Position numbers and translations under genes: made by a program | Assembly (NCBI GenBank): GCA_003153935.1 | Contig: PMCA01000034.1 | Location: forward strand, 1-64,000 | DNA: 64,000 nt | DNA from: Elusimicrobiota bacterium | GTDB taxonomy: Bacteria; CAYTYR01; UBA6262 | Direction: 5' to 3' | Shown here: positions 7,925-41,527 of the stretch, in pieces | Numbering within the stretch: the first letter of the stretch is position 1 | Layout: each line of letters starts with the position of its first letter | The notes under the pieces: generated by a model | Seen by the model: only the letters and a program-made list of their open reading frames with translations | Database searches by the model: none | What the model was told of the DNA's origin: nothing

Positions 7925-8665
7925 ATGAATAAGGAAAAGTTAGAGCGCATATTGAAGCAAATAGAGTCGGGGAAGTTATCCCCGGCTGAGGCTGTAACCC
8001 GCTTTAAGGATTACCCTTGCGGTGACCTGGGATTTGCCAAAGTTGACCATCACCGGCACCTGCGCCAGGGATTCCCCGAGGTCATCTATTGTCCCGGCAA
8101 GACCACTCCCCAGATAATACAAATAATCTCACAAATGAATAAGCATAAGGAAAACATACTGGCTACCCGGGCAGAGAAGCCGGTCTTTTTGGCGGTCAAG
8201 AAGAAGTTTAAAAAGGCTCAATATAACGAATTGGCCAGATGTATCGTCATACGGCAGGAAAAATCCGCCCGGAAGAAGGGTATCCTGATAATCACCGCCG
8301 GGACGGCCGACTTGCCAGTGGCGGAAGAGGCCAAAGTCACCTGCGAACTGCTAGGGCATGATCCGGACACGCTTTTTGATGTCGGCGTAGCCGGAGTGCA
8401 TCGCCTGCTGATGGAAACCGGTAAGCTGGCCAAGTCCAGGGTTATTATCGTGGTAGCCGGCATGGAAGGGGCCTTGCCCAGCGTGGTGGGCGGCCTGGTG
8501 GACAAACCAGTTATCGCGGTGCCGACCAGCATAGGTTACGGTGCGGCCTTTGGCGGCGTATCCGCGTTGCTGGCCATGCTGAACAGCTGCGCGCCTAATG
8601 TGACTGTTGTGAATATTGATGATGGTTTTGGAGCCGGGGTAGTAGCGAGTTTAATAAACAAGTGA
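7925..8665 (+). CDS. larB: LarB, nicotinate adenine dinucleotide carboxylase/hydrolase
   Basis: A 246-residue LarB of the AIR-carboxylase fold. LarB carboxylates nicotinic acid adenine dinucleotide and cleaves AMP to give pyridinium-3,5-biscarboxylate mononucleotide, the first step of the nickel-pincer cofactor. Visible family features are DHHRHLRQGFPEVIYCPGK, ITAGTADLPVAEEA, DVGVAGVHRLL, VVAGMEGALPSVVGGLVDKP and the C-terminal VNIDDGFGAG. The start at 7925 (MNKEKLERIL) was preferred over 7889, which would overlap the previous gene and read through the promoter. No Shine-Dalgarno sequence is present, in line with a leaderless message. LarC follows; larE and larA are not in the window. Confidence 0.92.
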   Translation: MNKEKLERILKQIESGKLSPAEAVTRFKDYPCGDLGFAKVDHHRHLRQGFPEVIYCPGKTTPQIIQIISQMNKHKENILATRAEKPVFLAVKKKFKKAQYNELARCIVIRQEKSARKKGILIITAGTADLPVAEEAKVTCELLGHDPDTLFDVGVAGVHRLLMETGKLAKSRVIIVVAGMEGALPSVVGGLVDKPVIAVPTSIGYGAAFGGVSALLAMLNSCAPNVTVVNIDDGFGAGVVASLINK

Positions 8666-8740
8666 AAAGTTAAAAGTTTTAAGTTATAAGTTTAGGCATA
8701 ATTCATTAACTTAACACTTTACACTTAAAACTTATAACTG
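8660..8740 (+). repeat. Hairpin of two 7-base-periodic arrays (AAGTNNN / NNNACTT)
   Basis: Five consecutive heptads of form AAGTNNN run from 8660 to 8694, then an 11-base centre, then five heptads of form NNNACTT from 8706 to 8740. The arms are inverted relative to each other and can pair in several registers. The array starts inside the last codons of larB and ends 17 bases before larC. A related element lies before accD (39320-39390). Confidence 0.75.
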
Positions 8741-8757
8741 ATTTTATTAGGATTTTT

Positions 8758-9483
8758 ATGCGCATTGCATATTTAGATTGTTCCAGCGGGGTTAGCGGCG
8801 ATATGCTGCTGGCGGCTTTGCTGGATGCCGGGATCGAGATAGCCGATTTAAGGAAAGTGTTAGCCAAATTAGATATTTCGGGATACTCTATCAGCGTCAA
8901 GAAAGTCAGGAAGGGCGCTCTCCTCGTTTCCCGGTTAGAAGTAAGAATTACTCGCCATCAGCATTTCCGCAGTTACCAGGATATTAAAAGCATAATCCAG
9001 AACAGCCGGATAAGCCCCGCGGTAAAAATAACAGCCATAAAAATATTAAGGAAACTGGGACAGACCGAAGCCAAGGTGCATAAGTGCCGGCTGGAAGAGG
9101 TACATTTCCATGAGATCGGCGCCGTGGATACCATTATCGATATCGTGGGGACGGTTTGGGCGCTGTCCAGGCTGAAGATCGGGAAGATTTACTCTTCCCC
9201 GGTGAACGTGGGCTCAGGGACGGTAAGAACGGCCCATGGCATACTGCCGGTGCCGGCACCGGCTACTGCGGCGTTGCTTAAAAATATCCCCACTTACAGT
9301 TCCGGAATAAAACAGGAACTGGCTACGCCTACCGGCGCGGTACTGGTCTCAACTCTTAGCCATAGTTTTGGACACTTGCCGGAAATGAGGGTGCTGGCGG
9401 TAGGAAACAGCTGCGGCAGCCGTGAGGTTCCCGGTCATGCCAACCTGTTCCGGGTGATAATAGGGCAAAAGGGTAAAAAGTAA
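8758..9483 (+). CDS. larC: LarC N-terminal (LarC1) half only
   Basis: A 241-residue protein matching the N-terminal half of LarC (DUF111), the nickel insertase of the lactate-racemase-type cofactor. It has IAYLDCSSGVSGDMLLAALLD, LEEVHFHEIGAVDTIIDI, YSSPVNVGSGTV and HGILPVPAPATAALL. Full LarC proteins are about 400 residues and carry a C-terminal LarC2 domain that binds CTP; here the frame stops at FRVIIGQKGKK and no LarC2 coding is seen in any frame before the next promoter at 9492. The protein is therefore either truncated or a LarC1-only relative. The start is ATG at 8758 with AGGA upstream. Confidence 0.85.
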   Translation: MRIAYLDCSSGVSGDMLLAALLDAGIEIADLRKVLAKLDISGYSISVKKVRKGALLVSRLEVRITRHQHFRSYQDIKSIIQNSRISPAVKITAIKILRKLGQTEAKVHKCRLEEVHFHEIGAVDTIIDIVGTVWALSRLKIGKIYSSPVNVGSGTVRTAHGILPVPAPATAALLKNIPTYSSGIKQELATPTGAVLVSTLSHSFGHLPEMRVLAVGNSCGSREVPGHANLFRVIIGQKGKK

Positions 9484-9491
9484 AAAAATGC

Positions 9492-9520
9492 TTGGCTATT
9501 AAAATAGAATTTGTTATAAT
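9492..9520 (+). promoter_or_regulatory. Sigma-70-like promoter for the pseudopilin operon
   Basis: TTGGCT (9492-9497), 17-base spacer, TATAAT (9515-9520) with TG one base upstream. The predicted start is near 9527, leaving a leader of about 20 bases with AGGCGG before the ATG at 9547. It closely resembles the folC promoter (TTGGCA, TTGTGTTATAAT). Confidence 0.72.
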
Positions 9521-9546
9521 AACCAAAATCAGATAAAAGGCGGAAT

Positions 9547-9963
9547 ATGCTGAATTCGGCCAGAGCAAAGATACTGAAGAATGAACATGGTTTCTCCATG
9601 ACCTTTATTTTCCTGGTCCTGGTTATTGTTTTGGTGGTGGCCTGGATCATTCCCAGCTATCTGAAGATCCATAACATGGCTCAGCAAAAAGCGACCAGGG
9701 GAGATCTGGATAACCTGCGTAAGGGCATAAACCTCTTTTTCCTGCAGCGCGGGCGGTATCCTTACAGCCTGGAAGATCTTGAACCGAATTTCGTCCATCC
9801 TTTCCCGCAAGTTCGCTTGGGTCTACCCGGCTATCCTGAAACGCGCCAAGTCACCAGGGTGTTGGTGGATTCAGGTATGTGGTTTTATGATGAAAATACG
9901 GGAGAAGTTAAGATAGATTGCTCAACCAAAGATCGTGACGGCGAAGTCATCAAAGACTGGTAG
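9547..9963 (+). CDS. Type IV pilin / pseudopilin-like protein
   Basis: A 138-residue protein with a prepilin-type leader: a charged N-terminus (ARAKILKNEHG) followed by FSMTFIFLVLVIVLVVAWIIP, so cleavage would fall after the Gly of EHG. The mature helix lacks the conserved Glu5 of major pilins, as GspK-type minor pseudopilins do. The soluble part has LRKGINLFFLQRGRYPYSLEDL, typical of type II secretion G-like pseudopilins, and a later GMWFYDENTGEVKIDC. It is the first gene of a unit with HAMP and PilZ proteins. No assembly ATPase or platform protein is nearby. Confidence 0.78.
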   Translation: MLNSARAKILKNEHGFSMTFIFLVLVIVLVVAWIIPSYLKIHNMAQQKATRGDLDNLRKGINLFFLQRGRYPYSLEDLEPNFVHPFPQVRLGLPGYPETRQVTRVLVDSGMWFYDENTGEVKIDCSTKDRDGEVIKDW

Positions 9964-9974
9964 CGGAGGAATGA

Positions 9975-10577
9975 ATGCCGGAACAGGTAAAATTCAAGAA
10001 TAGAAGAAAAAGGCTGATCATCGCCAGAAGCCTGCAATTCCGCTATGTAAGCGTGGTTTTGCTGGCTATGCTGTTCGTGGCATTGCTGGAAGGATTTATC
10101 GTTTATAAAACCATCTGGAACGAGTTGCTGGCGGAATCACGCTACAGCGACTGGGCTCCATTACTGACCTCGGTCATGAAAAAAGCTGATCTCCGGATAA
10201 TGTTCGGGCTGGTCGGCTCGATCGCGGTCATGCTGATCATCAGTATTTATATGTCCCATAAAATAGCCGGTCCGATCTACCGCATAAAGAAATTCATGGT
10301 GGAAGCGGCCAAAGGGGACCTGAGCTTCGAGCTGCGCCTGCGCAAGGGCGATGAGCTGACCGACCTGGTAGACGAGTTCAACCTGATGGTTAAGGGGCTC
10401 CGGTCCATTATCAGCCAGGACCGTGAAAAGGTGGGCGGGATAATGCGGGAAGCGGAAGAAACGCTGATGATCGTTAACCGCGCTACGGTCACCGCCGATG
10501 AGAAGAAACAGACTGCGGACCATCTCAAGAGCCTGATCGTTAAACTTAAAGATATCACGGGTCAATTCAAAGTATAG
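9975..10577 (+). CDS. Membrane protein with HAMP domain
   Basis: A 200-residue protein with two transmembrane segments (about residues 24-44 and 76-97) flanking a short extracytoplasmic loop, then a HAMP domain: MSHKIAGPIYRIKKFM, GDLSFELRLRKGDELTDLVDEFN. About 60 residues of amphipathic helix follow. There is no kinase, methyl-accepting or cyclase domain. Short HAMP-only proteins of this type occur beside pilin genes in several diderm lineages, perhaps passing a membrane signal to a partner. GGAGGA lies just before the start. Partner identity is unknown. Confidence 0.82.
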   Translation: MPEQVKFKNRRKRLIIARSLQFRYVSVVLLAMLFVALLEGFIVYKTIWNELLAESRYSDWAPLLTSVMKKADLRIMFGLVGSIAVMLIISIYMSHKIAGPIYRIKKFMVEAAKGDLSFELRLRKGDELTDLVDEFNLMVKGLRSIISQDREKVGGIMREAEETLMIVNRATVTADEKKQTADHLKSLIVKLKDITGQFKV

Positions 10578-10606
10578 GGATCAACCACAAAAAGAGCGAG
10601 GGCCTT

Positions 10607-10987
10607 ATGTCGCTAGAAAAAAGACAGTTCTTCAGATTTTCCACCTGCGTGCCGGTAAAGTTCTTTAACGCTTTTGCCCCGGGACAAGGTTATTCGGGAA
10701 TGGTAACCAATATCAGCGCCGGCGGCTGCCAGATCTTCGTCAAAGGGGAATGCCAGAGCTTGAATTACGTGGTATTGAACATGCATCTGCCTAACGGCGT
10801 GCTGCTGGACCTGATCAATGCCCGGATCATGTACGAAAATAAGGAATCGGACGGCACCCATCTGGGCGTAATGTTCATGAATATGGATATAAAAAAGCTC
10901 AGCGTGCTGGTGGATTTCCTGTCGGACCTGGAAGCGCAGGAAAAGGAAAAAAGCCCCAAGCCCCAGAGTGAACAGACCACGCCGTAA
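10607..10987 (+). CDS. PilZ domain protein
   Basis: A 126-residue PilZ protein expected to bind cyclic di-GMP. The RxxxR motif appears as RQFFR near the N-terminus and the second motif, D/NxSxxG, as NISAGG about 30 residues later; a later GTHLGVMFMNM block fits the fold's final strands. The C-terminus is a short charged tail. Together with the HAMP protein and pseudopilin it suggests a pilus or surface function responsive to cyclic di-GMP. No cyclase or phosphodiesterase is seen in the window. Confidence 0.85.
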   Translation: MSLEKRQFFRFSTCVPVKFFNAFAPGQGYSGMVTNISAGGCQIFVKGECQSLNYVVLNMHLPNGVLLDLINARIMYENKESDGTHLGVMFMNMDIKKLSVLVDFLSDLEAQEKEKSPKPQSEQTTP

Positions 10988-11013
10988 ACTGCCGATCAAA
11001 CTCACGGGAAAAA

Positions 11014-12510
11014 ATGAAAATATTATTAGCCGGATATAATTTAGATACAGACGTCATCAAAGACCTGACTAAGGGCGATCCGCTGCGTGCCGATGTCACG
11101 CCGGAAACCCTTTCCGCCGCTTACGCGCGCATCAGCCGGGATCCCCGCCCGGTGGATGAACTGCGGCAGGCCGCCCGCGCCGAAGTAGAGAACGCCCGCA
11201 AATCCAACAAAAGCATTATCTTCAAGATGGGGCATCATTCCGTCGCCGAACACGCCGTCTTTAATTTCGACATTATCGGCGTCTCCCGCCTGGCCCTGGA
11301 AGAGCTGGAAAAATTCCGCCTCTGTTCCTATACCGAAAAATCCCAGCGTTACATCACCCTGGCCGATGATTACATAATCCCGCAGGAATTGAAGATGAGC
11401 CAGTTCATCAGGGAATACACCGCGACCATCCAGCTGCAGAATGATTTTTATAAGCGCGCTTTTGAGGCCCTGAAAAATTACATTAACTACAAGCACCCGG
11501 AAGAGGCCAAGGATCCCAAGAAGCAGATCCTGCTGGAGGGCTGGGCCAAGGAAGACGCCCGTTACATCACCAGTCTGGCCACCGCCGGCCAGTTAGGGGA
11601 AACGATTAACGCCCGTAACCTCGAACTGGTCATCAGGCGTTTTGCCAGCCATCCTCTGCGGGAAGTGCAGGAGATCGGCCGCAAAATGTACAACCTGGTC
11701 GCCGGCGTTGCACCCTCGATCATCATATTTACCGAAGCCAACGAATTCGACCAGAAAACCTATCCGGCGTTAAAACATTTGAGTGAAACTATCCTGCATG
11801 CCAAGCAGATAGTGCCTGAGTCCTATCCAGGGGAGGTCAGCCTGGTGGATTACAGCCTGCATGGGGACGACCTGCTGGTGGCTTCCATGATGCATACCAC
11901 CAGTAAGATCCCGTACCGGCAATGCCTGAACTTGGTGCGGTTGCTGAAACCCGAACAGAAGAAGGAATTTATCAAAACTGCCTGCCAGCACCTGCAGTTA
12001 TATGACTCCACTTTACGGGAGTTTGAATATCCGTCCATGACCTTTGAGCTGAATATGTCGGCGAGCTGTTTCGCCCAGTTCAAACGGCACCGTTTAGCCA
12101 CTATTACTACCCAGGAATATAATCCTGACCTGGGCGTGGTCATACCTCAGGCTATCAAGGAAGTCGAAATGGACAAGGAATTCAAGGAAATTATCGACAA
12201 GACCAATGAAGTATATAAGAAGATATACGCTTCATTCCCATTAGCCGCGCCTTATATCCTGACTAACGCCCACCAGCGCAGAGTCCTTACGAAAGTGAAC
12301 GCCCGGGAGCTATATCACATGTCCCGCCTGCGGGAAGATGAGCACGCGCAGTGGGAGATCAGGCAAAAGACCGCCAAGATGAGCGAGCAGGCCAAGAGGG
12401 TTATGCCCCTGACCATGCTTTTGATGGGCGGCAAAGACTCCTACCCTAAAGTTTACGAGCAGGAATTCGGCCATCCTCCGAAAGTAGTCAACCCGGTTCT
12501 TCCCACCTGA
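11014..12510 (+). CDS. thyX: Double-length FAD-dependent thymidylate synthase (tandem ThyX)
   Basis: A 498-residue protein, about twice the usual ThyX length of 220-250. Residues 1-240 form one ThyX-like unit with GHHSVAEHAVFNFDIIGVSR and SYTEKSQRY (105-113), matching the SxNExSxRY end of the ThyX motif but lacking the RHR part. Residues 250-498 form a second unit with KRHRLATITTQEYNP (RHR at 358-360) but no SxRY. In known ThyX both parts of the motif build one flavin/dUMP site at subunit interfaces, so the two halves look complementary. It would make dTMP from dUMP using methylene-tetrahydrofolate and a reduced flavin. No thyA is visible. Confidence 0.85.
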   Translation: MKILLAGYNLDTDVIKDLTKGDPLRADVTPETLSAAYARISRDPRPVDELRQAARAEVENARKSNKSIIFKMGHHSVAEHAVFNFDIIGVSRLALEELEKFRLCSYTEKSQRYITLADDYIIPQELKMSQFIREYTATIQLQNDFYKRAFEALKNYINYKHPEEAKDPKKQILLEGWAKEDARYITSLATAGQLGETINARNLELVIRRFASHPLREVQEIGRKMYNLVAGVAPSIIIFTEANEFDQKTYPALKHLSETILHAKQIVPESYPGEVSLVDYSLHGDDLLVASMMHTTSKIPYRQCLNLVRLLKPEQKKEFIKTACQHLQLYDSTLREFEYPSMTFELNMSASCFAQFKRHRLATITTQEYNPDLGVVIPQAIKEVEMDKEFKEIIDKTNEVYKKIYASFPLAAPYILTNAHQRRVLTKVNARELYHMSRLREDEHAQWEIRQKTAKMSEQAKRVMPLTMLLMGGKDSYPKVYEQEFGHPPKVVNPVLPT

Positions 12511-12557
12511 CATAACCCGATATTAAATATATAGATAATGTAAAGGAGGCAATTGTT

Positions 12558-13079
12558 ATGGCTAAGATTACGGATGCTTTGAAGATCAGTATCGATTTCG
12601 AAAAAAGGGGAGTTGGGCTCTATTTATTGCTGGCGACCAAAACCAAGAACCCGCTGGCTAAAAGATTATTCTACAACCTGGCGATGCAGGAGATACAGCA
12701 TATCCTGAAATTCGAGGATATTTACCAGGACCTGAAGGATAACAACAAGTGGCCGCGCTGGACAGTGGAAGAGGGTGAGAAACTGGAATTCGTCATCAGG
12801 GCGTTCTTCCATGAAGCCAAGAAGGACGAGTCCATCAAGTTGGCCGACAACGTCAAGGGGCTGGAGCTGGCCATGCAGATGGAGAAAAAAGGGTACGCTA
12901 TGTATGAGCAGTTCCTGGCCAAAGCCAAAGACGCCAATGAGAAGTTGTTCTATAAAGAGCTGCTGAAACAGGAAAATTCCCATTACGAAGCACTGGCCAA
13001 CGTGCATTTGTACCTGACCCAGACCAGCGACTGGTTCACGGATGAAGAAAGTAAGGTTTGGAAATGGATGAATCTGTAG
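12558..13079 (+). CDS. Ferritin-like / rubrerythrin-like diiron protein
   Basis: A 173-residue four-helix protein with duplicated iron-ligand motifs: a helix Glu (IDFEKRGVGLY) then QEIQHI (ExxH), and again MEKKGYAMY then QENSHY (ExxH). This is the rubrerythrin-type arrangement without a C-terminal rubredoxin. It probably handles iron or peroxide in the cytoplasm. A strong AAAGGAGG lies eight bases before the ATG, and the preceding 45 bases are AT-rich with a possible promoter (TATAGATAAT). The exact oxidase or storage role cannot be decided. Confidence 0.85.
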   Translation: MAKITDALKISIDFEKRGVGLYLLLATKTKNPLAKRLFYNLAMQEIQHILKFEDIYQDLKDNNKWPRWTVEEGEKLEFVIRAFFHEAKKDESIKLADNVKGLELAMQMEKKGYAMYEQFLAKAKDANEKLFYKELLKQENSHYEALANVHLYLTQTSDWFTDEESKVWKWMNL

Positions 13080-13082
13080 AAT

Positions 13083-13110
13083 AGATGGCGGATAACAGAT
13101 GGCAGATGAC
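13083..13110 (+). repeat. Four 7-base units AGATGGC-type
   Basis: AGATGGC, GGATAAC, AGATGGC, AGATGAC follow each other without gaps in the space between the ferritin-like gene and suhB. The same unit type (AGATAGC/AGATGGC) recurs inside hisH at 28583-28610. Confidence 0.7.
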
Positions 13111-13131
13111 AGTTGTAACAAGGAGAGTTGA

Positions 13132-13944
13132 TTGAAAGAATTTTTGAAAGAAGCCATCGCGGTGGCGCTGAAAAGCGGAGAGATGATTCGCCGGCATGTA
13201 GGAAAAGCCAAAGATATCTCTTTTAAAGGGGCGGCCGACCTGGTCACGGATGTGGACAAGAGGTCCGAAGCCCTGATCAAAAGCTACCTGGCCAAAAAGT
13301 TTCCTACTCACCAGTTCCTGGGAGAAGAGGGTGGGGGAGACCGGACCGGATGTGCTTATCGCTGGGTAGTGGACCCGATCGACGGCACTACCAATTTCGT
13401 CCATGATCTTCCTTATTTCAGCGTTTCTATCGCCTTGGAATCTGACTGTAAGCCGGTCCTCGGAGTGGTTTACGACCCAGTGCATAACGAGCTATTCCAC
13501 GCTGTCAAAGGCGGCGGGGCTTTCCTAAATAAAAAAAGCATCAAGGTATCCAAAGTCAAAGAATTAAAACAATCACTGCTCTGCACCGGGTTCGCTTACG
13601 AGCTGAAAGATACCCGGGACTCCAATGTCGAGCATTTCGTGGATTTCCTGCTGGCTGCGCAGGCGATCAGGCGCCTGGGCTCGGCTTCGCTGGATATGTG
13701 CTATGTGGCCTGCGGCAGGTTTGACGGCTACTGGGAAGTAGGGCTGAAACCCTGGGACACCGCCGCAGCCCTGATAATATTGAAAGAAGCCGGGGGCAAA
13801 GCTACCAAGTTTAACGGCAGCCCTTATTCGCATTACGACCAGGAGATCCTGGTATCCAACGGACTGCTGCATAAAAAAATGGAAGACGTGCTGATGCGCC
13901 GCCGCCGGGTACGCCACTGCAAGGTTACGTTTGGTAAATACTAA
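13132..13944 (+). CDS. suhB: Inositol monophosphatase family protein
   Basis: A 270-residue SuhB/IMPase-family phosphatase, hydrolysing inositol or related sugar phosphates with magnesium. Metal-binding motifs are visible: GEEGGG (EE), WVVDPIDGTTNFVHDLP (DPIDGT) and WDTAAALIILKEAGG (WD). The start is TTG at 13132 behind AAGGAGA, giving the normal N-terminus KEFLKEAIAVALKSGEMI. The C-terminus has an unusual basic run (RRRRVRHCK). The stop overlaps the polA ATG by one base (TAATG), so the two are translationally coupled. Confidence 0.92.
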   Translation: MKEFLKEAIAVALKSGEMIRRHVGKAKDISFKGAADLVTDVDKRSEALIKSYLAKKFPTHQFLGEEGGGDRTGCAYRWVVDPIDGTTNFVHDLPYFSVSIALESDCKPVLGVVYDPVHNELFHAVKGGGAFLNKKSIKVSKVKELKQSLLCTGFAYELKDTRDSNVEHFVDFLLAAQAIRRLGSASLDMCYVACGRFDGYWEVGLKPWDTAAALIILKEAGGKATKFNGSPYSHYDQEILVSNGLLHKKMEDVLMRRRRVRHCKVTFGKY

Positions 13945-18830: not shown

Positions 18831-18836
18831 ATATGA

Positions 18837-20267: not shown

Positions 20268-20293
20268 TAAAAAACACCAAGGAGGAAGTCGCG

Positions 20294-22133: not shown

Positions 22134-23210
22134 GTGTTAGAAAAATTAGAAACAATAAAACAAAGATATGATGAGCTGTCCAACCTGCTGTCAAACCCGG
22201 CCGCTCTTAGCGGCCAGGATTTCCAGCGCCTGGCCAAGGAACATTCCAGCCTGGCCAAAACCGTGGCCAAGTATAACGAGTATGAGAGCGTGGTGCAGGA
22301 ATTAAAGCACGTGCAGGAGATGCTCAAGAGCCCTGACGCCGAGATGAAAGCTTTGGCAGAAGAGGAATTGAAGGATTTAACGGATAAAAGGGCGGTCCTG
22401 GAAAAGGAATTGACCGTGCTCCTGATACCGCCCGATCCCGATGACGGCAAGAATATCATCATGGAGATCAGGGCCGGCACAGGCGGGGATGAAGCGGCCC
22501 TGTTCGCGGCCGACCTATTCAGGATGTATTCCCGCTATGTGGCTAACAAGGGTTGGAAGATAGAAATGATGGATTCCCACGGCACCGATAAGAGCGGCTT
22601 CAAAGAGGTGATTTTTAACGTCAGCGGGACCGACGTTTACAAACATATGAAGTTCGAGAGCGGTGTGCACCGGGTCCAGCGCGTACCGGAAACCGAGGCC
22701 AGCGGGCGTATCCATACCTCCGCCGTGTCTGTAGCGGTACTGCCGGAAGCCGAAGAGATAGATGTTAAGATCAACCCTGAGGACCTGAGAATAGATACTT
22801 ATTGCGCCGGGGGCCCTGGCGGCCAGTGCGTGAACACTACTTATTCCGCGGTCCGTATCATACATATCCCTACCGGATTGATAGTACAGTGCCAGGATGA
22901 ACGGTCGCAGATCAAGAACCGGGCCAAAGCCATGAAGGTGCTGATGGCGCGCCTGCTGGAACGCGAGCGGCAGGAACGGGAAAAAGCGCAATCCCAGAAC
23001 CGCAAGGCCCAGATCGGTACCGGGGACCGGAGCGAGAAGATCCGCACTTATAATTTCCCGCAGGACCGGGTAACTGACCACCGTATCGGCCTGTCACTGC
23101 ATAATATCGGAGCGATCATGGAAGGGGAGATCGATGACCTGGTAACTTCCCTGTTGGCGGCAGAAGAAGAAAAGAAACTGCAAAGCTTGAAAGAAAGCGA
23201 CGCCACATGA
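22134..23210 (+). CDS. prfA: Peptide chain release factor 1
   Basis: A 358-residue RF1 starting at GTG behind AAGAGG. It terminates translation at UAG and UAA. The tripeptide anticodon region reads [15 protein letters not shown], so the PxT motif is PET rather than the common PAT, consistent with RF1 rather than RF2 (SPF). The GGQ motif is in [17 protein letters not shown]; the usual GGQHVN is changed to GGQCVN. The adjacent prmC methylates this Gln in other bacteria, and its start overlaps by four bases. Confidence 0.96.
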
Positions 23211-24058
23211 CCTGGGGCGAGCTGCTTAATTGGGCCGCGCAACTTTTGAAAAAAGCGGGGGTAGATAAGCCGGGCCTGGAAGCGGAATTACTGCTGGCGG
23301 AAACCCTGGGAATACCCAGATTAGAGTTAATGTTGTGCCGCCGGGAGACAGCCAAGCGGGCAGGTATTAAGAAATTTAAAAAATTTATAACCTTACGCCG
23401 GAGAAGAATACCAGCCGCCTATATTTTACAGAACGCTTTCTTCTATGGATTGAAATTTAGTATTGAAAAAGGGGTGCTGATACCGCGGCCGGAGACGGAG
23501 CTGCTGGTTGAGGAGACACTAAAAGCCGTTCATCGTTCATCGTTCATCGTTGATAGTAAAAAGATTAAAATACTTGATGTTGGGACGGGGAGCGGGGCGA
23601 TAGCTGTGACGCTGGCTAAGAATCTGGAAGCTGCCCGGGTATACGGGACCGATGTTTCGGCCAAGGCCCTGACAGTAACGCGGAAGAATGCCATCAGCCA
23701 TAAAGTAGCCGGGCGCTTACGCTTGAAACGTGGGAGCCTGCTGGCCGGACTGCCCGGGAAGTTTGATATAATAATTTCCAATCCGCCTTATATAAACGAG
23801 CGGGATATGAAGCGTTTGCAGCCGGAGGTCAATTACGAACCCAGGACGGCGCTGTCCGGCGGCCAAGACGGCCTGGACTTTTACCGCAAGATAATACCGC
23901 TGGCCAGGGAGCGACTGGCGACCAAAGGTTTCCTGGCCCTGGAGATCGGCTATGATCAGGCCGGAGCCATAGAAAAGATGTTAAGGACGAGAGGGTTTGA
24001 ACGGATAGAAATAAAGAAAGATTACGCGGGTATAGACCGAATAATAATCGCAAGCTAA
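23207..24058 (+). CDS. prmC: Release factor glutamine methyltransferase
   Basis: A 283-residue PrmC, modifying the GGQ glutamine of release factors with SAM. The N-terminal helical domain is followed by [10 protein letters not shown], the SAM loop [17 protein letters not shown] and the catalytic NPPY (ISNPPYINE). Between [13 protein letters not shown] and the SAM loop lies an extra stretch [12 protein letters not shown] encoded by four 7-base CGTTCAT-type units (23527-23554), which the family normally lacks. Start overlaps prfA (ATGA). murA follows nine bases later. Confidence 0.95.
23527..23554 (+). repeat. Four 7-base units CGTTCAT inside prmC
   Basis: CGTTCAT three times, then CGTTGAT. 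On the other strand the unit is ATGAACG, the same type as the array at 28512-28539 in hisH. It codes about ten extra residues (near 107-116 of PrmC) just before the SAM-binding loop, with the frame preserved. Confidence 0.85.
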
Positions 24059-28172: not shown

Positions 28173-28838
28173 TTGATAGCCATTATAGATTACGGCATGG
28201 GAAATTTAAGAAGCGTGGCCAAGGCTCTGGAAAACCTGGGAGCGGAGATCAAGATAACTTCCAGTCCGAAAGTTATTACCAGTGCCCAGGGAGTTGTTTT
28301 GCCCGGAGTTGGCGCTATGCCCGATGCCATGAAAGCGCTGGTTAAGGAAAAATTAGTAAAACCGATAGAAAAGGTGATCTCCGCCGATAAGCCTTTCCTG
28401 GGTATCTGCCTGGGTCTGCAATTATTGTTTGAGACAAGTAAAGAGGGCGGGGGTTCTAAAGGACTTGGTATTTTTGCAGGTTCTGTTCCTCGCTTTGTTT
28501 TCTCTAAACCACGAACGGCCAACGATGAACGATTAACGGCTCTTAAAGTGCCGCACATGGGATGGAACCAGATCAAGCAGACAGATAGCAGATGGCAGAT
28601 GGCAGATAGCAGTAAAAACATCCTGTCGGGTATAGAAGATAATTCTTATGTATATTTTGTCCATTCGTATTACGCCAAACCCAAAGACCGGACCCTGGTC
28701 GCGACTACCACTGATTATGGGATAGAGTTTTGCTCGTCCATTGCCAGGGGTAATCTTTTCGCCTGCCAGTTTCACCCGGAGAAGAGCCAAAAGGTGGGCC
28801 TGCGCATTCTCAAGAACTTTGTCGCCCAATGTAAGTAG
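28173..28838 (+). CDS. hisH: Imidazole glycerol phosphate synthase, glutaminase subunit
   Basis: A 221-residue class I glutamine amidotransferase that supplies ammonia to HisF. The start is TTG at 28173, one base after the hisB stop, giving the normal IAIIDYGMGNLRSV. The triad is visible as GICLGLQLLFE (Cys) and QFHPEKS (His, Glu). The conserved KVPHMGWNQI is flanked on both sides by extra residues encoded by 7-base arrays: PRTANDERLTA before it and DSRWQMADSS after it. HisH is normally about 200 residues, so the inserts account for the added length. Confidence 0.95.
   Translation: MIAIIDYGMGNLRSVAKALENLGAEIKITSSPKVITSAQGVVLPGVGAMPDAMKALVKEKLVKPIEKVISADKPFLGICLGLQLLFETSKEGGGSKGLGIFAGSVPRFVFSKPRTANDERLTALKVPHMGWNQIKQTDSRWQMADSSKNILSGIEDNSYVYFVHSYYAKPKDRTLVATTTDYGIEFCSSIARGNLFACQFHPEKSQKVGLRILKNFVAQCK
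28512..28539 (+). repeat. Four 7-base NNAACGN units inside hisH
   Basis: CGAACGG, CCAACGA, TGAACGA, TTAACGG run without gaps. The unit is the complement of the CGTTCAT array in prmC. It encodes about ten residues just before the conserved KVPHMGWNQI motif. Confidence 0.8.
28583..28612 (+). repeat. 7-base AGATRGC array inside hisH
   Basis: AGATAGC, AGATGGC, AGATGGC, AGATAGC, then AG. It matches the intergenic array at 13083. It encodes DSRWQMADSS after the conserved KVPHMGWNQI, 43 bases after the end of the first hisH array. Confidence 0.85.
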
Positions 28839-33313: not shown

Positions 33314-33469
33314 ATGGTGGAAAAAAGTTTACTGGATATCATGGCCTGTCCCGACTGTAAAGGCGGGGTGATAGAAAAAGATAACAAAATTATCTGCCAG
33401 AATTGCGGCAAAAAATATCCTATCCGCGACGGTATCCCCGTCATGCTGGTGGAAGAAGCCGAGAAATAA
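33314..33469 (+). CDS. Trm112-like zinc-binding small protein
   Basis: A 51-residue protein, [19 protein letters not shown], with CPDC and, 18 residues on, [18 protein letters not shown], the four-cysteine zinc ribbon and IPVML ending of the Trm112/UPF0434 (YcaR) family. GGAG lies six bases before the ATG at 33314; in-frame ATGs at 33302 and 33308 are alternatives. In other organisms the family activates methyltransferases or is linked to lipid A genes; here it lies between trpG and trpD. Its role is unknown. Confidence 0.85.
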
Positions 33470-33470
33470 A

Positions 33471-34556: not shown

Positions 34557-35316
34557 ACATAAGAAAAAACAGATCGCCTTGGCCAAACAGGAAGTGTCAT
34601 TATGGGAACTGCAGGGGAAGTTGCTCGAAATGAAAACCCCGGCTAAGAATTTTAAGTCGTCCATCTCGGTGCCCAAAGATAAATTGCATGTCATCGCGGA
34701 GATAAAAAAGGCTTCTCCCAGCGCCGGGCTTATCATAGATAATTACAATCCCGCCCGGATCGCCCGGCTCTACCAGACGCACAGGGTGAACGCTATTTCC
34801 GTCCTGACCGAGGAAAAATACTTCCAGGGGGACCTGTATCATATTTCCCTGGTCAAGCAAGTTACGACCCTGCCGGTCCTGCGGAAAGATTTCATTATTG
34901 ACGAATACCAGATCTACGAGTCCCGGCTGGAAGGCGCGGACGCCATTTTGCTGATCGCCGGATTACTATTCAAAAGCGAGATACAGAAGTTTCTGGATAT
35001 TGCCAAGGAGATCGGCCTGCAATGCCTGGTGGAAGTGCATAACGAGGCCGAATTGAACAAAGTGCTGGATACCTCCGCGGATATTATCGGGATCAATAAC
35101 CGCAATCTTTCCACCCTTAAAGTGGACCTGAAAACTACGGTGGAATTAAGGCCGAAAGTGCCCCGGGATAAAGTGGTGGTCAGCGAGAGTGGAATAAGGT
35201 CAAAAGAGGACATAAAATTGTTGAAAGATTTGAAGGTAAATGCTATACTAATAGGACATTATTTACTGGAGCAAAGGGATACCATGGGTAAGGCTCTCAA
35301 GGAGCTTTTAACCTAA
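34531..35316 (+). CDS. trpC: Indole-3-glycerol phosphate synthase
   Basis: A 261-residue (beta/alpha)8 enzyme closing the indole ring. It has [77 protein letters not shown] and VVSESGIRS. The catalytic Lys and Glu positions are present. It is not fused to TrpF, whose gene lies beyond trpB2. Confidence 0.96.
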
Positions 35317-35342
35317 TTTTAATGTCGGCAAAGGAGAAAATG

Positions 35343-36704
35343 ATGGACGAGAAAATCCTGTTGTCAGAGAACGAAATACCCAAAGCCTGGTACAACGTGG
35401 CCCCGGACCTGCCGGAGCCATTGGCCCCGCCGCTTAACCCCAAGACCGGCAAGCCTGCCGAAGCGGGTGATTTTACTCCTATTTTCCCGATGGAACTGAT
35501 CAAACAGGAGATGTCCCAGGAACCATGGATAGAAATACCCAGCGAAGTCAGGGATATCTTGAAAATATGGCGTCCTACGCCTCTGGTACGCGCGGTGCGT
35601 CTGGAAAAAGCCCTGGGAACACCAGCCAGGATATATTATAAAAATGAAAGCGTCAGCCCGGCAGGCAGTCATAAGCCTAACACCGCCGTGGCGCAAGCCT
35701 ATTACAACAAAAAAGAAGGGGTCAAGCGCTTATGTACCGAAACCGGCGCCGGGCAGTGGGGCAGCGCTTTATCGTTTGCCACTTGTCTGATGGACCTGAA
35801 ATGCACGGTTTACATGGTCAGGGTGAGTTTCGACCAGAAACCATACCGTAAACTTATGATGCAAACCTGGGGCGGGGAAGTTTTTGCCTCTCCTTCCGAT
35901 AAAACTAATTCAGGGCGGGCGATGCTGAAAGAAGACCCGAATTCAGCCGGATCGCTGGGTATGGCTATCAGCGAAGCAGTGGAAGACGCAGCTACCCATG
36001 ATGATGCTAAATATGCCCTGGGCAGCGTGCTGAACCATGTAATATTGCACCAGACCGTAATAGGCCTGGAAACCAGGGAACAACTTAAAAAGGCCGGAGA
36101 AAAAGCCGATGTGCTGATCGCCTGCGTAGGCGGTGGCAGTAACTTCGGCGGTTTTGTTTTCCCGTTCGTGCCGGATAAGAAAAAAGGGCAGAATATCAAG
36201 ATGATCGCGGTTGAGCCCTATAGCTGCCCAACCCTGACTAAGGGACCTTTCACTTACGATTTCGGCGATACGGTAGGTTTAACGCCTTTACTTAAAATGT
36301 ACACGCTGGGTCATACTTTTATGCCGCCTTCGATCCACGCTGGCGGACTGCGCTATCACGGAGCTTCGCCGCTGGTCAGCCTGGCGGTTAAGACCGGACT
36401 GGTAGAAGCCAGAGCCGTGCACCAGAACCCATGTTTTGAGGCCGCTGTACAGTTTGCCCGTACCGAAGGCCTTATACCAGCGCCGGAATCATCCCACGCC
36501 ATCAGGGTGGCTATCGATGAGGCCCTGTTATGTAAGAAGAACAATGAATCTAAATGCATAGTCTTCAACCTGAGCGGCCATGGTCATTTTGATATGGCCA
36601 GCTATGACAAGTATTTCGCCAAGAAGCTGGAAGATTACGAATATCCTGACGAGAAGGTCAAAGAAGCTTTAAAACACTTACCGAATTTATGTAAGGTAGA
36701 ATAA
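35343..36704 (+). CDS. Tryptophan synthase beta chain, TrpB2 type
   Basis: A 453-residue TrpB-like PLP enzyme of the TrpB2 (TrpEb_2) subgroup: longer than TrpB1, with an N-terminal [37 protein letters not shown] and the PLP lysine in [22 protein letters not shown]. The serine/indole half includes [11 protein letters not shown] and [15 protein letters not shown]. TrpB2 is thought to salvage free indole or act as a serine deaminase, often without TrpA. AAGGAG fits the ATG at 35343 best; 35340 and 35322 are alternatives. A normal trpB-trpA pair follows, so both types are in one operon. Confidence 0.94.
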
Positions 36705-37340
36705 TTGGTTAAAATAAAAATTTGCGGTATAACCTGCGCGCAGGATGCGACCTGGGCGGTAAATTTAGGGGCGGATTTTATTGGATTAAACTTTTTTAAA
36801 GATAGTCCAAGAAAAGTTTCGCCCCAAAATGCAATGGAGATAATCCAGCAGCTGCCTCCCTTTGTGTCCGCGGCCGGAGTTTTCGTCAACGAGGAGCAGA
36901 AAGAGCTGGTCAAGATCGCCCGCAAGCTGGGGCTGAAGATGATCCAACTGCACGGTGACGAGAGTCCAGATTATTGCCGCCAGCTGAAGGAAGCCTTACC
37001 CGAGGCCAAGATCATCAAGGCTTTCCGCATCCAGGATGAGGCCAGCCTGGCCCCAATGTCATCTTTCAGCGAAGCGGCCGACTATTTCCTGCTGGATGCC
37101 TATGTGCCGGAGATACCCGGTGGGACCGGCGTTACCTTTAACTGGGAACTGGCGGTAAAAGCTAAAGAGCTCGGGAAGCTGGTTTTCCTGTCCGGCGGAC
37201 TAAACCCGGAAAACATCCAGGAAGCCATTGAGAAAGTCAAGCCGTTCGCGGTAGACGTTTGCAGCGGCATCGAGCGCTCGCCAAAACGCAAAGATTACGA
37301 CAAGATGAAAGATTTTATTACGAAAGCGAAGCAGGTTTAA
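36705..37340 (+). CDS. trpF: Phosphoribosylanthranilate isomerase
   Basis: A 211-residue TrpF starting at TTG directly after the trpB2 stop. It has VKIKICGITCAQDATWAVNLGADFIGLNF, IQLHGDE, FLLDAYVPEIPGGTGVTFNW and LSGGLNPENIQEAI, with catalytic Cys (KICGIT) and Asp (LLDAY). Zero spacing to trpB2 suggests coupled translation. Confidence 0.95.
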   Translation: MVKIKICGITCAQDATWAVNLGADFIGLNFFKDSPRKVSPQNAMEIIQQLPPFVSAAGVFVNEEQKELVKIARKLGLKMIQLHGDESPDYCRQLKEALPEAKIIKAFRIQDEASLAPMSSFSEAADYFLLDAYVPEIPGGTGVTFNWELAVKAKELGKLVFLSGGLNPENIQEAIEKVKPFAVDVCSGIERSPKRKDYDKMKDFITKAKQV

Positions 37341-37343
37341 AAC

Positions 37344-38534
37344 ATGTTACCAGACAAGAACGGATATTTTGGGATTTTCGGCGGCAAGTTCGTGCCGGAA
37401 ACGCTGATGCCGGCCCTGGCCGAACTGGAAGAGACCTATAGCCGGGTAAAGAATGAAGCCCGGTTTAAAAAGGATTTGGCTTATTACCTGACAGAATATG
37501 CCGGCCGACCCACGCCTCTATATTTTGCCGCGAATCTCACGGCTCTATACGGCGGGGCTAAAATTTACCTGAAAAGGGAAGACCTCTGTCATACCGGCGC
37601 TCACAAGATAAACAATACCATCGGCCAGGCCTTAGTGACCCTGCGCATGGGTAAGAAAAGGATCATTGCCGAAACAGGGGCGGGCCAGCATGGCGTAGCG
37701 GTAGCGACGGTGGCCGCGCTCTTCAAGCTCTCCTGCGACGTGTATATGGGCGCGGAAGACGTAGAGCGCCAGAAGCTCAACGTTTACCGCATGCAAAAGC
37801 TGGGTACCAGGGTGATACCTGTGACCAGCGGCACCCAAACCTTGAAAGACGCCATGAACGAAGCGTTGCGCGACTGGGTAACCAATGTGCGCACGACACA
37901 CTATATGCTGGGTTCCTGCGCCGGACCGCATCCTTTCCCAATGATGGTCAGGGATTTCCAGGCGGTGATAGGCAAGGAAACCAGGAAGCAGATACTGCAA
38001 AAGGAAGGGCGCTTGCCTGATTACCTGCTGGCCTGCGTCAATGGCGGCAGTAACGCGATTGGCCTGTTCCACCCATTCTATAACGATGATAAAGTGAAAT
38101 TTATTGGCGTGGAAGCCTCGGGCGCCGGGGTAAATACCAAAAATACCGCGGCGACCATGGCCAAAGGCCGCATCGGTATATTGCACGGTTCCAAATCCTA
38201 TCTCCTGCAGGACCAAAACGGACAGGTCAGTCCGACTCATTCCATCGCCGCTGGATTGGATTACCCGGGAGTAGGACCGGAGCATAGCTATTATAAATAT
38301 ACCGGCCGGGCCGAGTATGTCAGCGCGACCGACCAGGAAGCCCTGGCGGCATTTGATCTGCTGGCCAGGCAGGAAGGTATCCTACCGGCTCTGGAAAGCG
38401 CGCACGCTGTCGCTTATTTAAAGAAACTAGCCCCTAAATTAGCGAAAAATAAAATAATCGTGGTCTGTCTCTCGGGCCGCGGAGATAAAGATATGGAACA
38501 GATCAAGCATAGAGAAGGTCTAAAGAATACATGA
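37344..38534 (+). CDS. trpB: Tryptophan synthase beta chain, TrpB1 type
   Basis: A 396-residue canonical TrpB. It shows [30 protein letters not shown], the PLP lysine in [48 protein letters not shown] and [10 protein letters not shown]. It forms the alpha-beta complex with TrpA, whose start overlaps its stop (ATGA). It coexists with the TrpB2 gene 640 bases upstream. Confidence 0.97.
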
Positions 38535-39313
38535 ACCGCATAGAAAAGAAATTTCAGGAACTAAAAAAACTGAAGAAGCCGGCACTGATCACCTATATTT
38601 GCGCCGGTGACCCTAACCTGAAGACCACTTACGAGCTGGTCCTGGAGCTGGAGAGAAGCGGCGCGGATATTATCGAGTTAGGGGTGCCGTTCAGCGACCC
38701 GATCGCCGACGGGCCAACGATACAGCGGGCGGCTTTACGGGCGCTTAAGAAAAACACTTCTTTAAAAGATATAGTCTCACTGGTCGGGAAGCTCAGGAAA
38801 GAGAGCCAGATACCTATTCTCCTGATGACCTATGCCAATCCGGTCTATCAGTTTGGGGTAAAGAAACTGGCCGGATCATCACAGGGAAACGGGGTGGACG
38901 GGTATATAATACCCGACCTGCCGCCGGAAGCCGGGCGGGAGATCAGGCAGGAATTCAGGAAAGAGAACGTAGACCTGGTTTACTTGGCGTCGCCGTTGAC
39001 CGACAAACGGCGGTTGAACATAATTAACCATAATTCTTCCGGATTCATTTACTACGTATCGGTGACCGGAGTGACCGGGACCAGAGTGAGCCTGCCCGGA
39101 GAGGTCAGCAACCAGGCCAGGTCTCTGCGCCGGCTGGCGGATAAACCGGTAGCGATAGGATTCGGCGTATCCAACCACGTTCAGGTGAAGAAATTGGCGG
39201 CTGATTTTGACGGTGTTATTGTCGGCAGCGCCATAGTCAATATTATCGAACAGAACCTAGGTAAAAAAGACCTGGTGGAAAAAGTAGGGAAGTTTGTACG
39301 GAGTCTTAAATAA
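38531..39313 (+). CDS. trpA: Tryptophan synthase alpha chain
   Basis: A 260-residue TrpA, cleaving indole-3-glycerol phosphate. Blocks are [40 protein letters not shown] (catalytic Glu), [15 protein letters not shown] (catalytic Asp), [14 protein letters not shown] and [11 protein letters not shown]. It ends the trp operon; a 7-base-periodic hairpin follows, then accD. Confidence 0.97.
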
Positions 39314-39319
39314 GAAAAG

Positions 39320-39390
39320 CAGTTTTAAGTTATAAGTTATTGTTTAAAAATTATATTTCACCATAACTTAACACTTAACACTTATAACTT
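39320..39390 (+). repeat. Hairpin of 7-base-periodic arrays before accD
   Basis: CAGTTTT, AAGTTAT, AAGTTAT (39320-39340) face ATAACTT, AACACTT, AACACTT, ATAACTT (39363-39390) across a 22-base AT-rich loop. The arms are complementary heptad by heptad. It is the same family as the element at 8660-8740, in the same kind of place (after a stop, just before a ribosome-binding site). Confidence 0.8.
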
Positions 39391-39412
39391 GTCACTGTAT
39401 TTTGAGGTGAAT

Positions 39413-40234
39413 ATGGCAGTAAAAAATCCAAAAAAGAAAAAGAACGTACCGGAAGGCTTGTGGACCAAGTGCCCGAGCTGTACCCAGATCATCTTTAACA
39501 AGGACCTGGAAAAGAATCTGAAGGTCTGCCCTAAATGCGATTATCATTTCCCTCTCAGTGCAAAGGAGAGGATCAGCCAGCTCTCTCCGAAGAAAACGTT
39601 TGTCGAACTGGACGCCGATATGCACGCCCTGGACCCGTTGGGATTTGTCGACCTGAAAAAGTATAAGGACCGTTTGAAAGAGAATATCAAGAAAAGCGGA
39701 TTGAACGAGGCGGTGATCACCGGGGTCGGGGACATCGGCCGGCACCGGGTAGGCATCGGCGTGCTGGATTTCAATTTCCTGGGCGGGAGCATGGGTTCGG
39801 TGGTGGGAGAAAAAATATCCCGGATGGTCGAGAAAGCCATCGCTAAACGCTTGCCGGTAGTTATGGTCTCGGTCAGCGGCGGAGCCCGGATGCAGGAAAG
39901 CATATTATCGCTGATGCAAATGGCCAAAACCTGCGCCGCATTGGCGAAATTAGGAGAGAATAAGTTGCCTTATATATCCGTCCTGGCCAATCCAACCACC
40001 GGCGGGGTGACCGCCAGTTTTGCCATGATGGGAGACGTGAATCTGGCCGAACCCAAGGCTCTGATCGGCTTCGCGGGCCCGCGGGTCATCGAACAAACCA
40101 TCCGACAGCAGTTGCCGGCGGGTTTCCAGCGGTCGGAATTTCTATTGAGCCATGGTTTCGTCGATATGGTGGTGGAACGCAAAAACCTCAAGGGCACCAT
40201 CGATAAACTGCTTGATTTCCTGTACAAAGGATAA
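39413..40234 (+). CDS. accD: Acetyl-CoA carboxylase carboxyltransferase beta subunit
   Basis: A 273-residue AccD, transferring carboxyl from biotin to acetyl-CoA in fatty-acid synthesis. A four-cysteine zinc ribbon (CPSC, CPKC) starts the protein, followed by YKDRLKENIKKSGLNEAVITG, DFNFLGGSMGSVVGEKI, SVSGGARMQESILSLMQM and GFAGPRVIEQTIRQQLP. GAGGTGA precedes the chosen start; a longer frame from 39389 would run through repeat sequence. accA is not in the window. Confidence 0.96.
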   Translation: MAVKNPKKKKNVPEGLWTKCPSCTQIIFNKDLEKNLKVCPKCDYHFPLSAKERISQLSPKKTFVELDADMHALDPLGFVDLKKYKDRLKENIKKSGLNEAVITGVGDIGRHRVGIGVLDFNFLGGSMGSVVGEKISRMVEKAIAKRLPVVMVSVSGGARMQESILSLMQMAKTCAALAKLGENKLPYISVLANPTTGGVTASFAMMGDVNLAEPKALIGFAGPRVIEQTIRQQLPAGFQRSEFLLSHGFVDMVVERKNLKGTIDKLLDFLYKG

Positions 40235-40240
40235 TAAATA

Positions 40241-40270
40241 TTGGCATTGGCTGGAAACTTGTGTTATAAT
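40241..40270 (+). promoter_or_regulatory. Promoter overlapping the apparent folC start
   Basis: TTGGCA (40241-40246), 18-base spacer, TATAAT (40265-40270) with TGT upstream. It is almost a twin of the promoter at 9492. The -35 box is also the TTG that opens the longest folC frame, and transcription would start near 40277. Confidence 0.65.
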
Positions 40271-41527
40271 AAAAAAATAAGGTCATTTACCGAGGCTATT
40301 AGCTTCCTGGAAAAGGCCGAGAAATTAGGCATAAATTTTGGCTTGGCAGGTGTAATTAAGGCTTGCGGTTATTTGGGCGATCCGCAAGATAAAATTAAGG
40401 TAATTCATGTAGCCGGAACTAACGGCAAGGGCTCGGTATGCGCTTTCATCTCCGGCATCCTGCAGTCAGCGGGATACCGGGTGGGGCTGTACAGTTCGCC
40501 GCACCTGATCGATGTGGAAGAGCGCATCCAGATAAACCGGGTGCCGATCAGCAAAAAAGATTTCAGCAGGGTCATCAGCCGGATCCATGACACTCTTGTA
40601 GCCCTGGACCTGAAACTGACCTACTTTGAAATATTAACAGTGGCTGCTTTTCTTTATTTCGCGGAACAAAAAGTGGACTTGGCCATCCTGGAAGTGGGTA
40701 TGGGGGGGCGCCTGGATGCTACTAACGTGGTCAGTTCTTCTTTAATATCCGTGATCACTAATATCGATCTGGACCATACTCAGTATTTAGGTAATACTCT
40801 GGCCAAGATCGCCAGAGAGAAAGCGGCCATCATTAAACGCGACAGTATTTTGGTCACAGCCGCTAAACAACCGGAAGTCCTTTCAGTATTTGAACGGAAA
40901 TGCCGGCAGCAGCATTCGCTATTTTGGCGGGTTGGCAGGGATATCGCAGTCCCGACCGGCCAACTGGGACTGCGGGGCGAGCATCAGAGACTTAACGCCG
41001 CTTGCGCACTGGGAGCGGTCAAAGCGCTCCGGCAGCGTGGATATAAGATAAAACAGTTAGCTATCAGGCGCGGGTTGGCAAAAACATCCTGGCCCGGCAG
41101 ATTAGAAATTCTTAAACTGCCAACTGCCAACTGCCAACTGCGAACGATTATACTTGACGGCGCCCACAATCCCGCTGGCGCGGAAACCCTCGCCACCTAT
41201 CTTAATGGCGAGATTCGAGCGTGTAAACCAGTGACTCTGGTCTTCGGCGTATTGAAAGACAAGGACTACCCGGAGATGATCAGGATAATGGCGCCAGTAG
41301 CCACACGGGTGATACTGGTTAGACCTGGGTCGGAACGGGCGTTACCGCCGCGGCGGATGTTAGCCCTGTGGCGTAAGGCGATAGGAGCCGGCAAGGTAAG
41401 CGCGGCGAAAGATATCGGGCAAGCCTTTAGGCAAGCACGATCGGCAGCGGACGGAAATAGCCTGGTTTGCGTATGCGGCTCTCTTTATGTAGTCGGCACG
41501 GCCAGAAAAATATTGCTAAAAGCTTAA
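40241..41527 (+). CDS. folC: Folylpolyglutamate / dihydrofolate synthase
   Basis: Up to 428 residues. FolC adds glutamate to folates and often also makes dihydrofolate. Visible motifs are GLAGVIKACGYLG, the P-loop VAGTNGKGSVCAFI, SSPHLIDVEERIQIN, LDATNVVSSSL, TNIDLDHTQYLG, REKAAIIK and LDGAHNPAGAE. The frame's first TTG (40241) coincides with a -35 box; the family N-terminus would fit a start near 40277 (ATA AGG TCA), so the true start is uncertain and may be non-standard. Four 7-base AACTGCC units insert about ten residues (PTANCQLR) before LDGAHNP. It follows accD, a common accD-folC pairing. Confidence 0.93.
   Translation: MALAGNLCYNKKIRSFTEAISFLEKAEKLGINFGLAGVIKACGYLGDPQDKIKVIHVAGTNGKGSVCAFISGILQSAGYRVGLYSSPHLIDVEERIQINRVPISKKDFSRVISRIHDTLVALDLKLTYFEILTVAAFLYFAEQKVDLAILEVGMGGRLDATNVVSSSLISVITNIDLDHTQYLGNTLAKIAREKAAIIKRDSILVTAAKQPEVLSVFERKCRQQHSLFWRVGRDIAVPTGQLGLRGEHQRLNAACALGAVKALRQRGYKIKQLAIRRGLAKTSWPGRLEILKLPTANCQLRTIILDGAHNPAGAETLATYLNGEIRACKPVTLVFGVLKDKDYPEMIRIMAPVATRVILVRPGSERALPPRRMLALWRKAIGAGKVSAAKDIGQAFRQARSAADGNSLVCVCGSLYVVGTARKILLKA
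41115..41142 (+). repeat. Four 7-base AACTGCC units inside folC
   Basis: AACTGCC three times then AACTGCG. They encode residues KLPTANCQLR, placed between the GRLEIL strand and the conserved LDGAHNP motif, and keep the frame. Confidence 0.85.

Follow-up and report, generated by a model that had tools for sequence, protein, structure and literature searches.

Heptad repeat arrays of an Elusimicrobiota genome change dialect in register at orthologous sites, including loops of essential genes

We found that short tandem arrays of seven-base units (heptads) in an Elusimicrobiota bacterium (assembly GCA_003153935.1) have a narrow length and a common unit grammar, stand as inverted pairs in spacers and singly inside genes, and at orthologous sites of related species are often written in another unit type, or dialect, with the in-gene arrays evolving in concert. 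The window under analysis is a 64,000-nucleotide stretch, contig PMCA01000034.1, number 14 of the 36 contigs that make up the genome (1,747,160 bp in all). It was compared with three genomes of the same family, G001, G002 and G003, which show synteny with it at a DNA identity of about 65-80%. Genes in the window were named by Pfam and genes elsewhere by our own reading of their protein sequences.

Results

Dialect change at orthologous sites

The orthologous sites in G001-G003 mostly also carry period-7 arrays, often of another dialect, and at most in-gene sites the length and phase of the array are kept between species. The phosphoglucomutase gene pgm-a has AATCAAC units here, CCGCAAC in G003 and GGTCAGC in G001, each array spanning 33 nt in the same phase, and the orthologous arrays of its paralogue pgm-b are likewise in other dialects. 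The second array of purL (purL-2) reads GTCGCGA here, GGCAGAC in G001 and ATCAACA in G002 and G003; argJ shows AACGACC, AACGGCC, ATCCGCC and ATCTGTC across the species, and folC has AACTGCC here and AACCACG at the same site and phase in G001 and G003. Loop 1 of hisH is in the AACG dialect here and in G002, in CGCGACT in G003 and in AGCGACC in G001, with equal length and phase; loop 2 holds AAAATCA (G002), AGCGTAT (G003) or GACGGCG (G001), and there the lengths vary. The prmC site is occupied by GTCGCTA units over 31 bp in G003, by GGCGGAC in G001 and by GTCGCTG, split by an insert, in G002. Borders, length and core phase are identical in up to four species at pgm-a, argJ, folC, hisH loop 1 and purL-2. 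Both hairpin arms have changed together in two spacers, one of them array-free here and the other lying between trpA and accD, where the two arms are in the AGTTTTG dialect in G001 and in GAGTTGCG in G003.

Across seven in-gene sites the mean identity was 0.81 within arrays (at lag 7), 0.61 between orthologous arrays and 0.73 in the flanks, the first figure being inflated for this genome, whose arrays were chosen by self-similarity, while those of the relatives were located by position. In 22 of 28 orthologous pairs each array is more similar to itself than to its orthologue, and at purL-2 the identity between orthologous arrays falls to 0.17. The in-gene arrays thus show concerted evolution, because independent mutation from a common ancestral array cannot make agreement within arrays exceed agreement between species.

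Replacement is not the only change seen. A spacer that is array-free here holds an 80-bp hairpin in two relatives (20268-20293, Table 1), so whole elements are also gained or lost. The spacer between the purE-like and larC-like genes has a different short inverted repeat in G003, GCGGATA/TATCCGC, and the one between the rubrerythrin and suhB-like genes has arms of the GTTGCGA/AACTCGC type. Position 66483 of G003, in a gene that is rmlD-like by sequence, carries a neat array, which appears here and in G001 as decayed versions of the same length with conserved amino acids; arrays can therefore also age in the ordinary way.

Separately, we observe small palindromes (CCCGCCACTAAAGCATCGGCGGG; TCCGCCAAAGGCGGATCAGCCTCTGGCTGA; GGCCGGCCGGCCGACGTTTTAGTGGCCGG) that interrupt heptamer arrays without breaking the frame, so that one repeat family is nested within another, at hisH loop 2 of G001 (L114), pgm-b of G003 (L296), purL-2 of G003 (L316) and prmC of G002 (L148).

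Unit grammar and array length

Array length is sharply peaked, with most arrays between 28 and 35 bp and a mode of 31 bp, equivalent to five cores (four full units and three further bases). The formula GTTnXYn fits nearly all units; its XY pair does not vary within an array and gives the dialect its name: TA (AAGTNNN), AT (GTTSATW), CG (GTTNCGR), and GC and GT (GTTGGCA, GTTCGTC). Within arrays, diversity is near zero at GTT and low at XY, but it reaches 0.4-0.7 where the unit is free (the two n). In the AT dialect it is 0.03/0.07/0.05 over GTT, 0.09/0.12 over XY and 0.46/0.41 over the two n, the CG, GT and GC dialects having similar position-wise values, and in the AAGTNNN dialect it is the last three positions that are free. 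Adjacent units are no more alike than distant ones, the identity being 0.692, 0.684 and 0.680 at lags 1, 2 and 3 units (p = 0.29).

Abundance of period seven

Arrays were scored as runs of identity at lag 7, with a cut-off of at least 11 in the window and at least 12 in the genome. The preliminary description of the window had listed seven short arrays of seven-base units, between and inside genes, and all seven were recovered at, or within a few bases of, the positions given there. They are not isolated sites, since the genome holds about a hundred. At the window cut-off there are 9 arrays with period 7, against 0, 0, 1, 2, 0 and 0 with periods 5, 6, 8, 9, 10 and 11, and 40 random windows from an order-3 Markov model had a mean of 0.18 period-7 arrays and at most 2. 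The whole genome has 97 arrays with period 7 and 2, 4, 4, 2, 5 and 7 with periods 4, 5, 8, 10, 11 and 13, so that the outcome in which neighbouring periods are as common as seven is absent. Periods 6 and 9 stand above the other non-7 periods, at 40 and 23, and as far as the strongest cases show this is due to repeats of other make-up, mostly within coding stretches. Five GTT cores at fixed spacing occur 18 times in the genome at period 7, and periods 4-6 and 8-15 give no case at all. The kinship proposed between distant window sites also holds: the arrays at 13083 and 28583 share CAGATGG, those at 8660 and 39320 share AAGTNNN, and those at 23527 and 28512 are reverse complements of each other (CGTT/AACG).

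Inverted pairs in spacers

Upon examining close pairs of arrays in the genome, we observe 29, of which 27 consist of a GTT arm, a loop and an AAC arm; the order AAC...GTT does not occur among them. Such spacer pairs span ~80 bp with a loop of 10-50 nt and can form hairpins. They sit in tight spacers, typically a few bases after a stop codon and ahead of a ribosome-binding site; as most gene pairs in this genome are co-directional, gene orientation is uninformative on their placement. Both window pairs fold better than shuffled sequence (-18.3 kcal/mol, z -3.44, for the RNA of 8660-8742; z -2.61 for 39321-39396). Between two convergent genes elsewhere in the genome (C25:18527-18634), AGTTGAT arms surround an apparent intrinsic terminator (AACAGGTTCTGATCTCTCAGAACCTGTTTT), so the loop is able to hold other elements.

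Arrays inside genes

About two dozen arrays lie inside genes of this genome, the hosts including purL (three arrays), the two pgm paralogues, hisH (two), prmC, folC, argJ, argS, nadC, an ABC-F ATPase and an M20 amidohydrolase. Six AAC-type arrays, in pgm-a, pgm-b, M20, argJ, hisH loop 1 and folC, are 33 nt each in one reading frame and encode [KEQ]xxTxNx[EQR]xxT or something close to it, in most cases directly followed by a hydrophobic stretch. A seventh array, close to an N-terminus, has the same frame. GTT-type arrays occur in any frame. Three or more repeats of a heptamer within a gene bring it into every reading phase, so that it must be free of stop triplets, and the dialects found in genes fit this requirement. 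No stable fold was found in the in-gene arrays (z 0.57, -0.53 and 1.61). The two pgm paralogues (C3:11273-12697 and C18:46470-47906) carry arrays of different dialects in the same loop.

Relative to array-free homologues, the net gain is ~0 at purL-2, 9-15 nt in pgm, 15 nt in argJ and folC, ~18 nt in prmC, 24 nt in hisH loop 2 and purL-3 and 39 nt in purL-1, with an uncertainty of a few residues in the loop alignments to distant homologues. prmC has ~6 extra residues against the solved HemK, folC has a net gain of about 5 residues against the solved FolC, and the array of hisH loop 2 is missing from array-free HisH and from the solved HisH. Since the gain is small although the array measures ~31 nt, at most such sites the array has replaced part of a loop and was not simply added.

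Table 1. Heptad arrays and related sites in the window, and inverted pairs of opposite polarity in genome G157
Position	Strand	Feature	Units or parts	Context
8660..8742	.	inverted heptamer arms	AAGTNNN arm 8660-8692, 16-nt loop, NNNACTT arm 8709-8742	spacer, purE-like gene (AIR carboxylase domain) to nickel-insertion (larC-like) gene
13083..13115	+	single array	CAGATGG dialect	spacer, rubrerythrin gene to inositol-phosphatase (suhB-like) gene
20268..20293	.	array-free spacer here	in G002 and G003, 80-bp GCGTATA/TATACGC hairpin	hairpin between stop codon and ribosome-binding site
23527..23557	+	in-frame array	GTTCATC x4 + GT	inside prmC (23207-24058)
28507..28538	+	in-frame array	five AAC cores, NNNAACG dialect	loop 1 of hisH (28173-28838)
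28582..28612	+	in-frame array	CAGATRG dialect	loop 2 of hisH
39321..39396	.	inverted arms	AAGTTAT / ATAACTT; arms 39321-39340 and 39366-39396	trpA-accD spacer
41115..41145	+	in-frame array	five AAC cores, AACTGCC dialect	inside folC (40241-41527)
L261, L262 (C19); C81, C90, C155, C169		opposite-polarity pairs		G157

Spread across bacteria

In a sample of 193 species from about 170 families, five GTT cores were found at period 7 in 50 species and at period 8 in 32. Forward against reversed cores, the counts were 113 v 0 in G022, 168 v 5 in G157 and 18 v 0 in this genome, and in some species, such as G055, another core prevails. The GTTSRAY pairs of G157 have the opposite polarity, an AAC arm followed after ~50-85 nt by a GTT arm. 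In Omnitrophota, hisH has arrays in the same two loops (L194, L178, L184). Long heptamer arrays of the slippage type occur in G072 and G060, and the two congeners of G072 have them likewise, a different regime.

The preliminary description had stated that the period never differs, which fails in the wider family. There are ~16 octamer arrays in 150 kb of G003, some in the same inverted layout, with sites in G003 (C55, L136-L143), in G002 and in this genome (C13:18473-18506, C21:6632-6664) and with the words AGGTGTAA/AGCTNTAC, CAGGTAAT paired with CCTGATAA, and GTGTCAAT. G113, G179 and G053 are further octamer-rich genomes, G179 having octamer pairs in the same inverted layout. Seven is thus the commonest period but not an obligatory one, and we rejected it as a universal rule on account of the octamer arrays of this layout in G003 and many other species.

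Discussion

The reading that we favour, at roughly an even chance, is that the arrays belong to a selfish hairpin repeat, dispersed over the genome, in which one copy can overwrite an older one while keeping its register. The arrays would be copies of a non-autonomous element whose unit of spread may be the ~31-bp array, (GTTnXYn)4GTT, with its five GTT (or AAC) cores spaced 7 bp apart; its spacer form would be two inverted arrays making a hairpin just behind a stop codon, and its gene form a single in-frame array in a protein loop. Copies would move between loci, and a resident array would be overwritten by one of another dialect, in register with the cores and usually at unchanged length, possibly through gene conversion or ectopic template switching, with the cores that the arrays have in common at 7-bp spacing as the guide. 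We infer the copying between arrays and the selfish spread from several patterns. Arrays at distant loci share their unit order in the AT and TA dialects (none of 500 shuffles reached the observed value), an indication that they were copied from locus to locus; the effect is small, and special end units may explain part of it. Ectopic copying also predicts that an in-gene array should be closer to the arrays of its own genome than to those of a relative, and such a tendency was seen: the own pool scored 0.80 against 0.77 for that of the relative, and 0.82 against 0.75, and was favoured in 14 of 20 comparisons, a weak and not decisive effect in which the G003 pool is a 150-kb stretch only.

Several observations weigh against this reading. 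purL-3 looks stepwise (GATGGCA, GCTGGCA, GCTGGAA) and not replaced. No arm-to-arm agreement beyond dialect was detected within hairpins (p = 0.26, 12 AT-rich pairs), and we accordingly rejected compensatory pairing of free positions between the arms. The comparison with G001-G003 did not reveal a clean insertion with target duplication, since the nearest relatives are only about 70-80% identical in DNA. No candidate for a copying enzyme came to light. Reverse transcriptase (PF00078) is absent from this genome, which is 95% complete, and from the three relatives, which rejects templating of the telomerase or diversity-generating retroelement (DGR) kind. The sole Y1/RAYT-like gene (Y1_Tnp, C24:32431-32763) has no array within 1.5 kb.

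In a broader form, it is possible, and we put it forward tentatively, that a genome-wide process rewrites heptad arrays in place, in register and mostly at the same length, exchanging one word for another across all the units and both hairpin arms, even in the essential genes purL, pgm and hisH; the period-7 and period-8 arrays of this layout in many phyla suggest that it may be general and without a tie to polymerase slippage.

The main rival, which we consider unlikely, is repeated independent insertion, in which tolerant loops and spacers are hit repeatedly by mobile arrays and each dialect is a new event after loss. It accords with the independent arrays in the same two loops of Omnitrophota hisH, with the arrays in the same loop of two old pgm paralogues and with the varying length of hisH loop 2, but would need strict site specificity to yield arrays whose borders, lengths and core phases match across as many as four species. 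Next comes an ordinary heptamer minisatellite, made and homogenised within the array by replication slippage or misaligned template switching, and this too we judge rather unlikely. The concerted change within arrays, the stepwise purL-3 series and the long arrays of G072 and G060 are what it would produce, whereas it sits poorly with the narrow range of lengths, the lack of single-heptamer length changes at most in-gene sites, the want of greater likeness between adjacent units, the frozen and hypervariable positions within one unit, the unit order common to distant loci and the orthologous identity as low as that of purL-2. The same pattern of lengths, adjacency, fixed variable positions and unit order lends no support to the earlier suggestion that slippage imposes the period of seven, and the data speak against plain slippage as the main driver in this lineage. 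It is improbable that the arrays are the binding sites of a protein that recognises DNA or RNA with one subunit per 7-bp unit, needing GTT and XY and tolerating n. The omega repressor does read tandem heptads, and the fixed and free unit positions, the fixed unit number and the placement beside stop codons and ribosome-binding sites would suit such a reader; many dialects together in one genome, arrays inside unrelated housekeeping genes and dialect changes at the same site would not. A REPIN-like element moved by a Y1/RAYT transposase is scarcely credible, since although the arrays have single and inverted double forms, as REP/REPIN sequences have in spacers (PMC3116915, PMC8266576), and Y1_Tnp genes are present in all four genomes, the one here is not flanked by arrays, few are flanked in the relatives, a single Y1 gene faces several dialects, and the units are tandem heptads; we therefore rejected the link.

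Upon comparing the arrays with known systems, we find likenesses with several of them. Rickettsia palindromic elements are short selfish elements that lie in frame inside housekeeping genes; the in-gene copies here differ in being single non-palindromic arrays with no common long sequence. Integron attC sites have boxes of the form GTTRRRY/RYYYAAC, a candidate that was dropped, as the pair polarity is opposite and the dialects do not fit. The STRR sequences of filamentous cyanobacteria are tandem 7-bp units at many loci, some of which form hairpin loops between genes (PMC2670836). The arrays described here share this layout, with tandem 7-bp units at many loci and 27 GTT...AAC pairs as spacer hairpins, which bears out the proposal of a comparable but varied heptamer family in another lineage. 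They differ in having several dialects that share a GTT/AAC core, a constant length of five cores, copies lying in frame within essential genes, and dialect change at orthologous sites. We saw no tie of this lineage to the cyanobacteria, none of which is among the 80 best named relatives of its HisH.

In the P6b stem of the Nostoc trnL (UAA) group I intron, heptads of Class I (TDNGATT) and Class II (NNTGAGT) form the stem, and one class has replaced the other repeatedly, a change interpreted in that study as exchange of the entire region (PMC4476775). Both systems have degenerate heptads, some positions fixed and others free, on the two sides of a stem, and both show whole replacement at one site, whereas P6b is one locus with two classes and here there are about a hundred loci, many dialects and protein-coding sites. 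The window arrays lie in prmC, hisH, folC and spacers between protein genes, not in a trnL group I intron; they behave like the P6b heptad stems but are not members of that class. The GGGNATC heptamers of Xanthomonas and Nostoc are dispersed, mostly in spacers, prefer four units and are in part inverted repeats, and they have been explained by G-quadruplexes, which require G tracts (PMC4692102). Most dialects here (AAGTNNN, GTTGATA) lack G tracts and yet have about the same unit number; the units of the main dialects GTTTTAA, GTTGATA and GTTGGCA have no G tract, and a G-quadruplex was rejected because the units lack a tract of three or more. The TAACTGA repeats of marine Beggiatoaceae are intergenic, have few units and lie near start codons (PMC4679880); there a single heptamer prevails and related heptamers are rare, whereas here a set of related dialects coexists. 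That heptamers predominate among the long simple repeats of some bacteria, and that they may originate by polymerase slippage, had been published by Mrazek and colleagues (cited in both PMC4692102 and PMC4679880). Overall, STRR is the best precedent for the layout and the Nostoc trnL intron stem the best precedent for the dialect change. Against the literature covered, the genome-wide scale, the five-core grammar, the in-frame occurrence in essential genes and the phase-keeping replacement there appear to be new.

Bacterial heptamer repeats have been noted for decades and ascribed to polymerase slippage or special folds. Here their length, grammar and concerted dialect change can be measured at orthologous sites in conserved genes, where slippage fails as an explanation. 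This would mean that a repeat system overwrites loops of essential enzymes, and the sites named here allow a direct test, by comparison of strains, of how short repeats spread and replace one another.

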